Shown here in pieces: positions 3,631 through 8,654 of a stretch of 64,000 nucleotides of DNA. Position numbers and translations under genes: made by a program. Source of the stretch: an uncultured bacterium (lineage in GTDB: Bacteria > Hydrogenedentota > Hydrogenedentia > Hydrogenedentales > CAILVY01); contig CALEDJ010000031.1 in NCBI GenBank assembly GCA_937951485.1, positions 1-64,000 on the forward strand, read 5' to 3'. The notes beneath the pieces were generated by a model. That model saw only the letters and a list, made by a program, of their open reading frames with translations. It was not told the origin of the DNA and searched no databases. The stretch's first letter is position 1. The number at the start of each line of letters is the position of its first letter.

Positions 3631-4836
3631 TCAGTCGGCAGCAGCATTTTCGAAGAACCGGATCGCCAGCGCGGCGAGCAACTCGACGGCCATGGGGATG
3701 GCGGCGTCATTGAAGTCAAAACGGGGATGATGCAGGGGGATTTGAGCGGTGTTATTCTTGTCGGTGTTTCCAAGGAAGATATAGGCGCCGGGGACTTTCT
3801 GGAGGTAGAAGGCGAAATCCTCGGAGGCCATGAATGGATGCTGCAACGCTTCGAGGGCCTGGGGGCCAAAGTGATCGGCGATGACGCCGCGCGCGAAGAA
3901 AGCCATCCCCGGATCGTTACAGAGGGGTGGATAGCCGTCGCCGTGAAGGGCAAATTGCGCCTCGGCGCGAAATCCCGCGGCAATCTGTGAGGCGAGGCGT
4001 GGAATGGCTTCGATGATATGATGGCGCACGTGCATTGACAAGGTGCGGAATCCGCCTTCCATTCTGGCCAGGGCGGGGATGATATTGGCGGCCGTTCCGG
4101 ATTTCACGCGGCCGATGGTAATCACCGCAGGGTCCCAGGGATTTAATTCGCGGCTGATGATGCTTTGCAGCGCCGTGATGATATGGGCTGACACGAGGAC
4201 AGGGTCCACGGCGTTTGCAGGGTCCGCCGCGTGGCCGCCGTGTCCGATGATATCAATGTGAAAAAAGTCCGCGCCCGCCATCACCGGCCCGTCGCCCGCA
4301 ACAGCAGCGCCTGCGGGAAGCGCGGGGCAGGCGTGCAGGGCGAAGGCGGCGGACACATCATCCAATATCCCCTCCTCCACGATTCTGCGTCCGCCTCCCG
4401 CCTGTTCCTCGGCGGGCTGGAATATCAGGCGGACCGCGCCGCGTATGCGATGGCGGTTCTGAATGAGTGTTTTGGCCGCCCCGCAAAGACAGGCGACATG
4501 GCCGTCGTGCCCACAGGCGTGCATACGCCCGGGCGTCTTGGAGGCATAGGGCAGGCCGGTCTCCTCTTGAATTTCCAAGGCGTCCATGTCGGCGCGGAGG
4601 ACAACGGTTCTGCGGTCGGACGGTTTTTGCCCTTTGATTTCCGCGACAATCCCCGTGCCGCCGGCGTGCCCTCTGGTATAGCGGATATCGTTTTCTTCAA
4701 GAAACTGCGCGATCCGGTCTGAAGTCCAGTGTTCTTCAAAGCAAATTTCCGGATGTTCATGGAGTTCGTGGCGCAAGGCGACGATTTCGGGAATGAGGTC
4801 GGCGACTTCTTGCCGGAGGAGGTTCTGCGTCATCAT
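3631..4836 (-). CDS. M20D-family amidohydrolase / metallopeptidase
   Basis: This 401-residue cytosolic hydrolase belongs to the M20D group (hippurate hydrolase, N-acyl-amino acid amidohydrolase, IAA-amino acid hydrolase). These use two metal ions to cleave an acyl or aminoacyl amide bond. Visible motifs are RHELHEHPE near the N-terminus, LRADMDAL, the metal-binding MHACGHDGH and EEQAGGG, and a C-terminal HPFMASEDFAF segment. The small lid (dimerisation) domain lies in the middle. I start it at ATG 4836, which has GGAAAG upstream. An in-frame ATG at 4869 would add 11 residues. It follows the lptD-like gene by about 50 bases and is probably in the same operon. The natural substrate cannot be told from sequence. 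Confidence 0.88.
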   Translation of the reverse strand: MMTQNLLRQEVADLIPEIVALRHELHEHPEICFEEHWTSDRIAQFLEENDIRYTRGHAGGTGIVAEIKGQKPSDRRTVVLRADMDALEIQEETGLPYASKTPGRMHACGHDGHVACLCGAAKTLIQNRHRIRGAVRLIFQPAEEQAGGGRRIVEEGILDDVSAAFALHACPALPAGAAVAGDGPVMAGADFFHIDIIGHGGHAADPANAVDPVLVSAHIITALQSIISRELNPWDPAVITIGRVKSGTAANIIPALARMEGGFRTLSMHVRHHIIEAIPRLASQIAAGFRAEAQFALHGDGYPPLCNDPGMAFFARGVIADHFGPQALEALQHPFMASEDFAFYLQKVPGAYIFLGNTDKNNTAQIPLHHPRFDFNDAAIPMAVELLAALAIRFFENAAAD

Positions 4837-4884
4837 GGGATGCGCTTTCCGTTGTTTCTGGGAATGCAAGTGGCCTCGAACGTA

Positions 4885-7800
4885 TCAGATGCGGATGCGG
4901 GTGCCCGGAAACGCGGTGATGCTGAATTCGATATTGAAGTCGGTGCCGCGTTCACGGTTGCGGATGCGCAGCGCGGTCTCCCAGCAATGGAGTGTGCGCC
5001 GGATTTCGTAAGTCTGGATGCGCAAGTCACCCCGGCTGATGTCAACGATATGCTCAAACCACAGACCCCAGTGGTCGCCCAGTTTGCATCCCAAACTGTA
5101 AAGAATATCACGGTTATACACCCGGCTTGCGGTTTCGGTGTAGATGAACCCCGCGCGTCCGTTAAAATAGCCGCCCATCGGAATGTCGTCATAGTAGAGA
5201 TGGGTCAGCACCCGGTTGAAATCGCCCAGCATGGTCTGGTACTCGATTTCAGGATTCAATCGCCAAGGCTGCCGGAAAATCAATTCATATGCCTGAAGGA
5301 ATCTCTCGTTCTGATAGAGGGGGACTCGCGGGAGAATGTCCCGATTGACCTTGTGGCGCTCTGCCGCCAGTTGAAATCCCCACCAGGGTCTCGGTCTCAA
5401 GTCAATTTCCGCTTCGTAATTTTCAGAGGCGCTGGTCTCGTTCCAGAGATCATTTCCCTGATACAGGGTGAAGCGCCCCACCTGCCAGACCTCGTTGGTA
5501 TAGGCGTCGCGGCCGTACAGCAGGTTATCGAGTTTGGATTCGATGCGGGCCTGCCCATAGACGCTGTCCCATGCGTCGTATCGGGGCGATTTCTCGATGC
5601 TGAGTGTTGACTTGGGCCTATAGGACATGGTCACTGAGGGAACGACCATGTGTTTGAATTCGGAAAAACCGAGGAAGCCGGGGTAGGTTTTGTGGAAGCG
5701 GCTTTGGGCCGTCACGCTGAGTTTGGTGGAAAGACGTGCCTGGGCGGTGTCGTCATGGTCTTCAGTGAGGTAAAAAGTGGCTTCGTTTTCCCAGTGGGGC
5801 GTAAGGGTGAATCCTTCCACAGGCGCCCAGGCATAGGACAGGCGGGCGATGTTGGTCTGGCGTCCGCCGGTATCGCCGTTCTGTTCGCGCTCGTTGTAGC
5901 CGAGGAGGGTGTCATAAGTGAAATAGAGGTTGGGCGCGATGCGGCGCTCGATAAGGTGGAAGGTCGCTTCGGGAAGGTATTCCGTTTCATAGACCCAGCG
6001 GTGCATGTTCAGTCGCGCGGTGGAGGTGGCGATATAGGAGGGTTGGCGATACGTGACGTTGACGAAGTCCCTTGGGGTGGTCCGATGCCGATAGAGTTCC
6101 CGGTGAAAATCTTTGTAAACGTCCCGATCGCGCCACATTTCGAGTTGTCCGCGCACTACCAGGTCTTCCGAGTATTCATAGCGGTGATACCATTCGCCGT
6201 AGCCTCGGCTTTCTGTGGTCATCAGGCCGTGCGCTTCGCCCTTGCTTCGGAAAAAGGGCGAGGCGGGATTGTCCATGAAATCGTATTTCACGTCTAATCC
6301 CAATCCGACGCCTTCTTTTTCCGTGGGATATAATCGCGGTCCCACGGTGATATCTCGGTTCACTTCAAACTGCATGCCGACATTGGCGTAGTAGCCCAAT
6401 TCGGCGGAGCGGCCGGAGCGGAAGTCAATGTACCAGGGGTTTTCCTCCTGGAGGTTGGCCCGCCAGCGCGGGAGGTACAGCGGGGTGGGCACTTTTCCGA
6501 ATTGAAGGCGGGCATGCGAACCGCGCAGCACCTGATCCTGGTCGGCGCTGAAGGTTTTCATGCGCAACCGATAGTGAGGGTTCTCCTGGTCGCAGGTGGT
6601 AACCCAGACCTCTTCGCCGTAAACTTGCTGGGGTCCTCGGATATACAGTTTGTCGGCATGAAAGTAATAGAGACCGGCGCGGCCCCTGACGTCTGTCAGT
6701 TCGCCTGTTTGACTGGCGAAGTCGAAGTGAACCTCGCTTGCGGTCATCTCGCGCGCAGGCTCAACGATATGCACGTCCTTGGCGTCCAGTTTTCCGACAC
6801 TCAGCCGCTGGCGGGCGCGTTCCTGATCGTCCAGTTCAGCGGTCAGCGGCGAGACCGCTTCGGGTGCCGCTTCAGGCGTCATTTCCTCCTCCATCGGCAA
6901 CTGGTAACGCATTTCCGAAGCAGTAAGGCGGGAAGATTCCTGCTCCACCTGCACATTTCCTTTGACGAAGATTTCGCCGGTGTCTTCGGAATGGGTGAGG
7001 GAATCAGCGCGGAACAGCATGTTTCCCATACGCAGGCGGACATTGTTTTCAAGATGCAACACACCGGTCTGTAAATCCCGGGTCATTTTTTCGGCCTCGA
7101 CATCCCGCAACGGCTCTGTCCAGTCGGGAGGTTCAAATCCCGCCTCCAACGAGCCGAATTCCGTTGGTTGTCGCAGGGCGTCTGTTATCGTACGCTTGGC
7201 GATTTGCCGCGTAGGCGCGGCGGCAGGTTTTGCCACATATCCCTCGGCGGTCCGGAGCGGATATCGCTTGAAGAGGCGCGCAAGAAACGATTTCTTTCTG
7301 GGCGTTTCTATTTCTGTCGTTTCCGGGGGTTCGTGGGGCAGTTCCGGCGGCGCTTCCGCGATGGCTGCCGACGGCGCTTCAGTAAGGGGGAGGAAGCGCC
7401 ATTCACGGTCCCGCGGACTCATGGCCAGCAAGGCGCCGGGAACTACTGAGATTCGCGTGGGCGCGAAATCCAGTGGAATGCGTTCACGCTCTGCAAGCGT
7501 GGCGTCCAGACGCACCAGGGTGCGTTCATAAAGAACAAATATTTCGTCCCGGTAAACGGTCATGGCTTCGACGGGGATTTCTTTGGCGCGGGTGATGCGG
7601 TGCGTTGCCGGGTCAACAATCAACAGTTTCGCCGCGCATCCCACGACAAAGCGGTCTCCGGACAAGGCGCCGAGGTGGTGGGGAATATCAGGGAGAGGCA
7701 CCTGGCTGCGCTCCGCCAGACGGTCGAGCCGGATGACGGTCAACTGGGGTTCGATGCGGCCAATCACGCCCAGAAATCGGCCGCTCGTCGTAACGCCGGA

Positions 7801-8277
7801 GGGGAAACCGGGCGCCTTTTCCAGGGTGGTGGTGAGGATGGGCGGTCCGGGATCAAGAATGGTGACGCTTTCGGAAAAGGTGTTGGTGACGACGAAGCGT
7901 CCATCGGGCATTGCGGCAAGCGTGGCGGGGCTTTCACCGACAGGGACGGTCGCAAGGAGGGTTTCATCGGGCAGATGGATAAGGGAAACGGTATTATCGA
8001 GGCGGTTGACGCACGCCAAGATATGGCCATCGGATGATAATGCCAACGCCACCGGCCCGCGGCCCACGGGAATCGTGCCGATGCGCGATTGATCATGGGG
8101 GTCGAAGACCCAAATCTCGTCGCGATTGTTCACTGCAAAATAGAGTCGGTTCTGGTCGGGGATCAGCAGGGCGTCGCGAAACTGCGCCTCCGCGTCGTAG
8201 GCGTCAAAAGGAGACGCCGCAGCGGACAGCATCCACAAGACAGTCAGGAGCCCGTATCCGATTGTCACATTGGACAT
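4885..8277 (-). CDS. LptD-like outer-membrane protein with N-terminal beta-propeller
   Basis: A protein of about 1,130 residues with a signal peptide at the start. Residues about 30-310 form YVTN-type beta-propeller repeats (RIGTIPVGRGPVALALSSDG, then LATVPVGESPATLAAMPDG). A Pro/Glu-rich linker follows (about 315-360). Next comes an OstA/LptA-like beta-jellyroll (NNVRLRMGNMLFRADSL, EIFVKGNVQVEQ). The rest is an LptD-type barrel domain (TTCDQENPHYRLRMKTF, GKVPTPLYLPRW) ending in alternating barrel strands. LptD inserts lipopolysaccharide into the outer leaflet of the outer membrane. The propeller is extra compared with the usual family. No good ribosome-binding site precedes ATG 8277 or the in-frame GTG at 8289, so the start is uncertain. 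It sits between a small secreted protein and an M20 hydrolase. Confidence 0.85.
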   Translation of the reverse strand: MSNVTIGYGLLTVLWMLSAAASPFDAYDAEAQFRDALLIPDQNRLYFAVNNRDEIWVFDPHDQSRIGTIPVGRGPVALALSSDGHILACVNRLDNTVSLIHLPDETLLATVPVGESPATLAAMPDGRFVVTNTFSESVTILDPGPPILTTTLEKAPGFPSGVTTSGRFLGVIGRIEPQLTVIRLDRLAERSQVPLPDIPHHLGALSGDRFVVGCAAKLLIVDPATHRITRAKEIPVEAMTVYRDEIFVLYERTLVRLDATLAERERIPLDFAPTRISVVPGALLAMSPRDREWRFLPLTEAPSAAIAEAPPELPHEPPETTEIETPRKKSFLARLFKRYPLRTAEGYVAKPAAAPTRQIAKRTITDALRQPTEFGSLEAGFEPPDWTEPLRDVEAEKMTRDLQTGVLHLENNVRLRMGNMLFRADSLTHSEDTGEIFVKGNVQVEQESSRLTASEMRYQLPMEEEMTPEAAPEAVSPLTAELDDQERARQRLSVGKLDAKDVHIVEPAREMTASEVHFDFASQTGELTDVRGRAGLYYFHADKLYIRGPQQVYGEEVWVTTCDQENPHYRLRMKTFSADQDQVLRGSHARLQFGKVPTPLYLPRWRANLQEENPWYIDFRSGRSAELGYYANVGMQFEVNRDITVGPRLYPTEKEGVGLGLDVKYDFMDNPASPFFRSKGEAHGLMTTESRGYGEWYHRYEYSEDLVVRGQLEMWRDRDVYKDFHRELYRHRTTPRDFVNVTYRQPSYIATSTARLNMHRWVYETEYLPEATFHLIERRIAPNLYFTYDTLLGYNEREQNGDTGGRQTNIARLSYAWAPVEGFTLTPHWENEATFYLTEDHDDTAQARLSTKLSVTAQSRFHKTYPGFLGFSEFKHMVVPSVTMSYRPKSTLSIEKSPRYDAWDSVYGQARIESKLDNLLYGRDAYTNEVWQVGRFTLYQGNDLWNETSASENYEAEIDLRPRPWWGFQLAAERHKVNRDILPRVPLYQNERFLQAYELIFRQPWRLNPEIEYQTMLGDFNRVLTHLYYDDIPMGGYFNGRAGFIYTETASRVYNRDILYSLGCKLGDHWGLWFEHIVDISRGDLRIQTYEIRRTLHCWETALRIRNRERGTDFNIEFSITAFPGTRIRI

Positions 8278-8357
8278 AACCACACCCACGCCGGCAGCGG
8301 CGTCTTTGTATGCATTTCAAGCCCTGTGTATCCTGAAGGCGACCACACTGATTTCGG

Positions 8358-8654
8358 TCATCGCCCGGGAAGTATGAACCAGAAGGCGGCGACGCGTTTG
8401 GATGATCTGTCTTCGGAGCGATGTATTTCCAAGGGACGATGAATTTCCGGCGGTCTGTCCTGGCTCGTCTTGGATTCAGCGGTGGGGACAGTAACCGGTG
8501 GCGCAGGGGCGGGCGACGGCGCATCGGTGGATGTGTCGCCAGCGGCATTTGCGGGCGGGGGCAAATCCCGTGTCTGCACTGTTGTTTCTCCCTGCTGCGC
8601 CCATGCGGCGCCCGCCGTGAGAGCGAACAAGACTGCCGGAAGTATTCTCAACAT
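8358..8654 (-). CDS. Small secreted proline-rich protein
   Basis: A 98-residue protein whose ATG overlaps the stop codon of the upstream sugar kinase by seven bases (ATGTTGA), suggesting translational coupling. The first 19 residues form a clear signal peptide ending in AWAQ. The mature part is rich in Pro, Ala, Thr and Ser (PSPAPAPPVTVP) and then charged, so it is probably disordered and lies in the periplasm. It precedes the lptD-like gene by about 80 bases. No family is recognised. A role in envelope assembly is possible only by position. Confidence 0.65.
   Translation of the reverse strand: MLRILPAVLFALTAGAAWAQQGETTVQTRDLPPPANAAGDTSTDAPSPAPAPPVTVPTAESKTSQDRPPEIHRPLEIHRSEDRSSKRVAAFWFILPGR

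Follow-up and report, generated by a model that had tools for sequence, protein, structure and literature searches.

Does LptD with a β-propeller at its N-terminus exist as a genuine protein architecture and, if so, what could the additional domain do at the lipopolysaccharide (LPS) translocon? These questions are raised by a gene on the minus strand (positions 4885–8277) of contig CALEDJ010000031.1, analysed here over a stretch of 64,000 nucleotides (the window) from a bacterium of Candidatus Hydrogenedentota. The gene is a single stop-free open reading frame of 1130 aa, with an alternative in-frame GTG at 8289, 12 bases upstream of the ATG. The initial annotation, made from the sequence without database searches, had proposed propeller repeats followed by a Pro/Glu-rich linker, an OstA-like jellyroll and an LptD barrel, and each of these parts was recovered in our analysis. 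The protein is almost certainly an LptD carrying a built-in propeller, and its order of parts is signal peptide, seven-bladed YVTN-type β-propeller, linker, OstA jellyroll, LptD barrel. LptD and the Lpt pathway are already of a known kind; what is new here is the propeller fused to LptD.

Architecture of the fusion protein

4885–8277, minus strand: propeller–LptD fusion gene (1130 aa, ATG start, frame intact; complete in 29 genomes)
8212–8277, minus strand: predicted Sec-type signal peptide, residues 1–22 (hydrophobic helix, then AAAS)
7387–8205, minus strand: seven-bladed YVTN-type β-propeller, residues 25–297 (TIGR02276, model and PDB matches; conserved in 38 genomes)
7111–7386, minus strand: flexible Pro/Ala/Glu-rich linker, residues 298–389 (92 aa here, 92–230 aa in relatives)
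7078–7188, minus strand: pre-jellyroll motif, residues 364–400 (RTITDALRQPTEFG..GFEPPDWTEPLRD; sequences and alignments)
6457–7110, minus strand: OstA/LptA-like jellyroll (β-taco), residues 390–607 (PF03968; strands in the model)
6592–6594, minus strand: Cys562 (VTTCD), jellyroll side of a predicted inter-domain disulfide (Cys in 59 of 61 aligned rows)
4888–6456, minus strand: LptD outer-membrane barrel, residues 608–1130 (26 predicted long strands; LptD structure matches)
4984–4986, minus strand: Cys1098 (LHCWE), barrel side of the predicted disulfide (Cys in 53 of the 57 rows with a residue there)

The profile hidden Markov model scan identified YVTN repeats (TIGR02276, 31.4 versus 27.85 bits for the cut-off) in two stretches at the N-terminus. 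Structure prediction, which the initial annotation had named as a way of checking its propeller, places the domain at residues 25–297: the AlphaFold model of the first 304 residues (22 sequences in the alignment; mean predicted local distance difference test score, pLDDT, 91.3) comprises 28 strands, i.e. seven four-stranded blades, the last of which is completed by the N-terminal strand 25–28. The best match of this domain in the PDB (Foldseek, E-value 6.7e-14) is 1l0q, a YVTN surface-layer propeller, and the YncE structure 3vgz superimposes with a Z-score of 31.8 and a root-mean-square deviation of 2.2 over 274 residues (VIA-align). The domain shares with these YVTN/YncE-type proteins the seven blades, YVTN repeats scoring over the cut-off and secretion, but it is fused to an outer-membrane barrel and falls under the Pfam cut-offs of both the YncE family (PF21783, 11.7 versus 27.1 bits) and the Lactonase family (PF10282, 18.0 versus 21.7 bits).

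Residues 301–362 of the linker are disordered in the model (pLDDT about 33). Across 26 fusions the linker varies from 92 to 230 residues and consists of 18% Pro, 17% Ala and 11% Glu. A disordered segment of such variable length argues that the propeller is tethered to the jellyroll rather than rigidly stacked on it. The pre-jellyroll motif (residues 364–400) was found in most relatives, propeller-bearing or not. The N-terminus is signal-like also in the relatives, and the model contains a helix at residues 2–19; a signal peptide together with this order of domains would place the propeller in the periplasm, in agreement with the location suggested by the initial annotation.

The jellyroll was recognized by PF03968 (LptD_N; 27.5 bits, cut-off 20.4). 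The window protein scores under the cut-off of the barrel profiles PF04453 and PF19838, and its orthologue L099 passes the former (45.1 versus 22.4 bits). DSSP analysis of the full-length model (mean pLDDT 80.6, predicted template modelling score, pTM, 0.54, with the individual domains well predicted) revealed 26 long barrel strands between residues 617 and 1120, and a Foldseek comparison of the LptD part with solved LptD structures gave an E-value of 3e-27. The protein resembles the LptD of E. coli and Klebsiella (PDB 9kn3, 5iv9) in the signal peptide, the OstA jellyroll, the 26-stranded barrel and the sites of an inter-domain Cys pair, and its genome likewise encodes LptE and the Lpt pathway. 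It differs from them in the added propeller and long disordered linker, in having one Cys pair (of the C173–C725 type) instead of two, and in its low identity to them (about 10–13% in the structure alignment).

In E. coli LptD, C173 of the β-taco pairs with C725 of the β24–β25 turn (PMC8423444; PMC12644819), and Cys724/725 occupy the same turn as Cys1098 (PMC12644819), which in our model lies between strands 1084–1096 and 1099–1107. In 53 of 57 rows Cys stands at both 562 and 1098, and G045 and G067 have lost the two together. From this conserved pair we infer a disulfide Cys562–Cys1098, which argues that the protein would be in the oxidised, closed state of an ordinary LptD. The fusion protein probably works as LptD, with a function in LPS transport.

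Distribution of the fusion

Is the protein a single oddity, as the initial annotation had treated it? Among 68 genomes of the class, 56 could be scored for the propeller, which is present in 38 and absent from 18; three of the others (G011, G038 and G061) have partial LptD only and the rest yielded no clear LptD match. The fusion is complete in one open frame in 29 of the propeller-positive genomes, runs off the contig in 5 and has its two parts at contig ends in 4. The complete fusions that were aligned are 36–50% identical to the window protein. The odd protein was therefore real, but its scale had been misjudged: most scorable genomes of the phylum have this architecture, and the domain order recurs across them. 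Five genomes of the same order (G017, G021, G022, G023, G026) possess LpxC and LptE and gave no clear LptD match to the profiles used; their LptD is either divergent or unassembled.

Wherever enough upstream sequence is available, lptD of the propeller-less genomes follows the same PfkB-family gene. The possibility that the propeller was split off there as a gene of its own was rejected, as no full-length homologue was found elsewhere in these genomes; they contain just short generic YVTN matches (E-value 9e-19 or weaker).

Searches of about 318 genomes of other phyla found LptD frames of about 600–1050 aa and no propeller in those that were read, which accords with the initial view that the architecture is unusual for LptD; each family was represented in this sample by one genome or a few, and distant LptD is poorly detected by the profile, so the fusion may also occur outside Hydrogenedentota. 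No relatives were found in the viral contigs searched, and among the plasmid matches listed all lie within the propeller and none covers 80% of the query. In the literature searched, no full text paired LptD and YVTN, and no title or abstract described the fusion.

The other components of LPS transport were identified as well. LptE scores over the Pfam cut-off in 58 of the 68 genomes, including that of the window, the majority of those with the fusion and each of the 18 without the propeller. The genome of the window also encodes LpxC, LptF and LptG in tandem, and a cluster of LptC-like, LptA-like and LptB genes (contig C20). The LptA-like proteins of the phylum are divergent and in many cases escape detection by Pfam. 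No LptE match was obtained in five fusion genomes (G046, G047, G048, G049 and G055), which do have LptD; their LptE is either divergent or missing. In the genome of the window, the LptC-like protein (L077, 8705–9280) starts with a lipobox-like IAAAGC, which suggests a lipoprotein and not a membrane-anchored LptC.

Evolution of the propeller

The maximum-likelihood tree of the jellyroll and barrel implies 7 changes of propeller state. The domain occurs throughout the ingroup and is missing from the outgroup, with separate absences in f5, an eight-genome clade of f2, G015/G016, G042, G025, G059 and G043. The tree by itself cannot tell gains from losses; as the outgroup lacks the propeller, the simplest reading is one early gain followed by about six losses, with G043, which branches near the root, having either lost the domain or never had it. 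Pairwise identities of the propeller and of the LptD part are correlated (Mantel r 0.57, 0 of 5000 permutations), so the propeller travels with LptD.

The propeller is under purifying selection. The ratio of non-synonymous to synonymous substitution rates (dN/dS) in the closest pair, G051/G052, whose synonymous sites are unsaturated, is 0.12 for the propeller, 0.10 for the linker and 0.02 for the jellyroll and barrel, and the range for the propeller is 0.12–0.30. The propeller evolves faster than the LptD part (mean identity 30% versus 48%), and the seven-blade fold is kept at about 30% identity. Altogether, the fusion is real, old and phylum-wide and was probably lost repeatedly, and an accessory role of the propeller is plausible.

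Possible functions of the propeller

What could this role be? We give about an even chance to the propeller being a tethered accessory docking module, dispensable, on an otherwise ordinary LPS translocon. The LptD of Hydrogenedentota would work together with LptE and the other members of a conventional Lpt pathway, and after export its barrel and jellyroll, joined by the predicted disulfide, would insert LPS like other LptD proteins. The propeller would stay in the periplasm on its flexible tether of 92–230 residues as a built-in subunit that keeps a periplasmic partner at the translocon, possibly an Lpt bridge protein, a factor of the β-barrel assembly machinery (BAM), a chaperone factor or another envelope protein. 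As several lineages lost the domain yet keep LptD, it would be useful but dispensable.

The docking role is suggested by known systems, since the propellers known from outer-membrane biogenesis are subunits of complexes and LptM and LptY bind LptD; of the two options in the initial annotation, a partner or a small molecule, the former is consistent with the fold, with a tether that is long and flexible, and with the examples of BamB, LptM and LptY, separate proteins of E. coli with which the propeller would share its role. BamB is likewise a periplasmic propeller with a part in assembling outer-membrane proteins; it is of particular importance for LptD in E. coli, where it matters for biogenesis of the LPS translocon (PMC10567701; PMC13067283), but it is a separate lipoprotein of another propeller family. 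LptM and LptY stabilise the β-taco, on which LptY docks (PMC12644819), and as added periplasmic parts of the E. coli translocon they offer a model for what an extra domain could do; they are, however, separate small lipoproteins, and LptY is lipocalin-like rather than a propeller. BamI of the Bacteroidota BAM is another propeller recruited to a machine of outer-membrane biogenesis, but as an extracellular, six-bladed, separate subunit (PMC12578637), whereas the Hydrogenedentota propeller is seven-bladed, fused to LptD and probably periplasmic.

Several points weigh against a docking module. The full-length model, with its pTM of 0.54, does not fix where the propeller lies with respect to the barrel. 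The loops of the two propeller faces do not differ significantly in conservation (p 0.20), and a conserved docking patch is for this reason not demonstrated. The best-conserved residues are partly fold-determining, and our analysis identified no protein partner of the propeller. Moreover, propellers bind small molecules and sugars too.

Could the propeller instead be an assembly factor acting in cis, which contacts BAM or a chaperone of the periplasm and aids folding of the large LptD barrel and formation of its disulfide, a counterpart of E. coli BamB that serves LptD alone? Matches over the cut-off of the BamB model are absent from all Hydrogenedentota genomes, which could count in its favour, but many PQQ-type propellers score under this cut-off in fusion and propeller-less genomes alike, and the BamB profile TIGR03300 is absent from the NCBIfam matches of the fusion protein (E-values up to 1). 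In addition, the propeller-less lineages retain LptD and, all but G025, the Cys pair, so LptD assembly does not need the propeller there. We regard this explanation as unlikely.

A similarly low probability is assigned to ligand binding or sensing, in which the propeller would anchor or regulate the translocon by binding a small molecule, glycan, peptidoglycan or metal in the periplasm. Related secreted YVTN/lactonase propellers occur on enzymes (a cytochrome c in G000, contig C35, and a phosphoesterase-like protein in G004, contig C39), and R34–D35, with which strand A of blade 1 starts, as well as R174 are nearly invariant. However, the domain scores under the cut-offs of the lactonase and YncE families, just 13 of its about 270 columns are invariant or nearly so, and among the conserved columns no catalytic or metal residue set is evident.

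That the propeller is a passive spacer or a near-neutral relic, kept by history and not by function, is quite improbable. Its faster evolution and its repeated absence would fit this explanation, and so would the smaller genomes of the lineages without it (median 3.9 Mb versus 6.4 Mb with it), but the association with genome size is not significant, as the tree offers about 5 independent pairs, and both the dN/dS values and the preserved seven-blade fold speak against a relic. The initial annotation had also suggested that the propeller might make up for an altered LptA/LptE, an idea (taken here to include their loss) to which the five fusion genomes with no LptE match and the divergent LptA-like proteins could lend some credit. 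Given LptE in the great majority of the genomes and LptA-like, LptC-like and LptB genes lying together in that of the window, i.e. with the rest of the Lpt pathway present, this claim found no support and is highly improbable. Finally, the joining of two genes by an assembly or base-call error, which the initial annotation had kept in mind, is ruled out by the same one-frame fusion in 29 genomes of independent metagenomes.

Neighbouring genes

8358–8654, minus strand: encodes a small (98-aa), secreted and Pro-rich protein, C-terminal RVAAFWFILPGR (directly upstream of lptD; conserved at the locus)
3631–4869, minus strand: M20-family amidohydrolase gene (directly downstream of lptD; candidate link to the system only)

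In the small upstream protein, a signal peptide is followed by a Pro-rich stretch and by the conserved C-terminus (K/R)VAAFWxxLP. Its gene was found at 40 of the 51 lptD loci whose upstream sequence spans 500 bases or more, with and without the propeller alike, and a profile search of the 68 genomes located it in 40 of them, always at or beside the lptD locus and with no paralogues. As a translocon factor it is a good candidate, as a special partner of the propeller it is not. In the propeller-less clade of f2 (loci L056–L059 and L064–L067; genomes G006–G009, G012, G013, G018 and G019) the small protein has an extra motif, WEYDxxGxPVxR, which is missing from that of the propeller-bearing f2 relatives; representing one event, this association carries no statistical weight. 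The M20 amidohydrolase gene lies downstream at 25 of 34 scorable fusion loci versus none of 18 propeller-less loci, an association that is likewise not significant with about 5 independent pairs on the tree.

It is possible, if somewhat doubtful, that the LptD with its own propeller and the upstream VAAFWxxLP factor together constitute a phylum-specific LPS translocon, i.e. a non-proteobacterial way of assembling or regulating the LPS gate.

Implications

Among outer-membrane machines, LptD belongs to the two with the widest conservation. It is a drug target, and most of what is known about it comes from Proteobacteria. That the majority of LptD proteins in a whole phylum have a dedicated propeller shows that new periplasmic modules can be added to the translocon by fusion, and the 18 propeller-less genomes provide a natural plus/minus comparison for the role of such modules.
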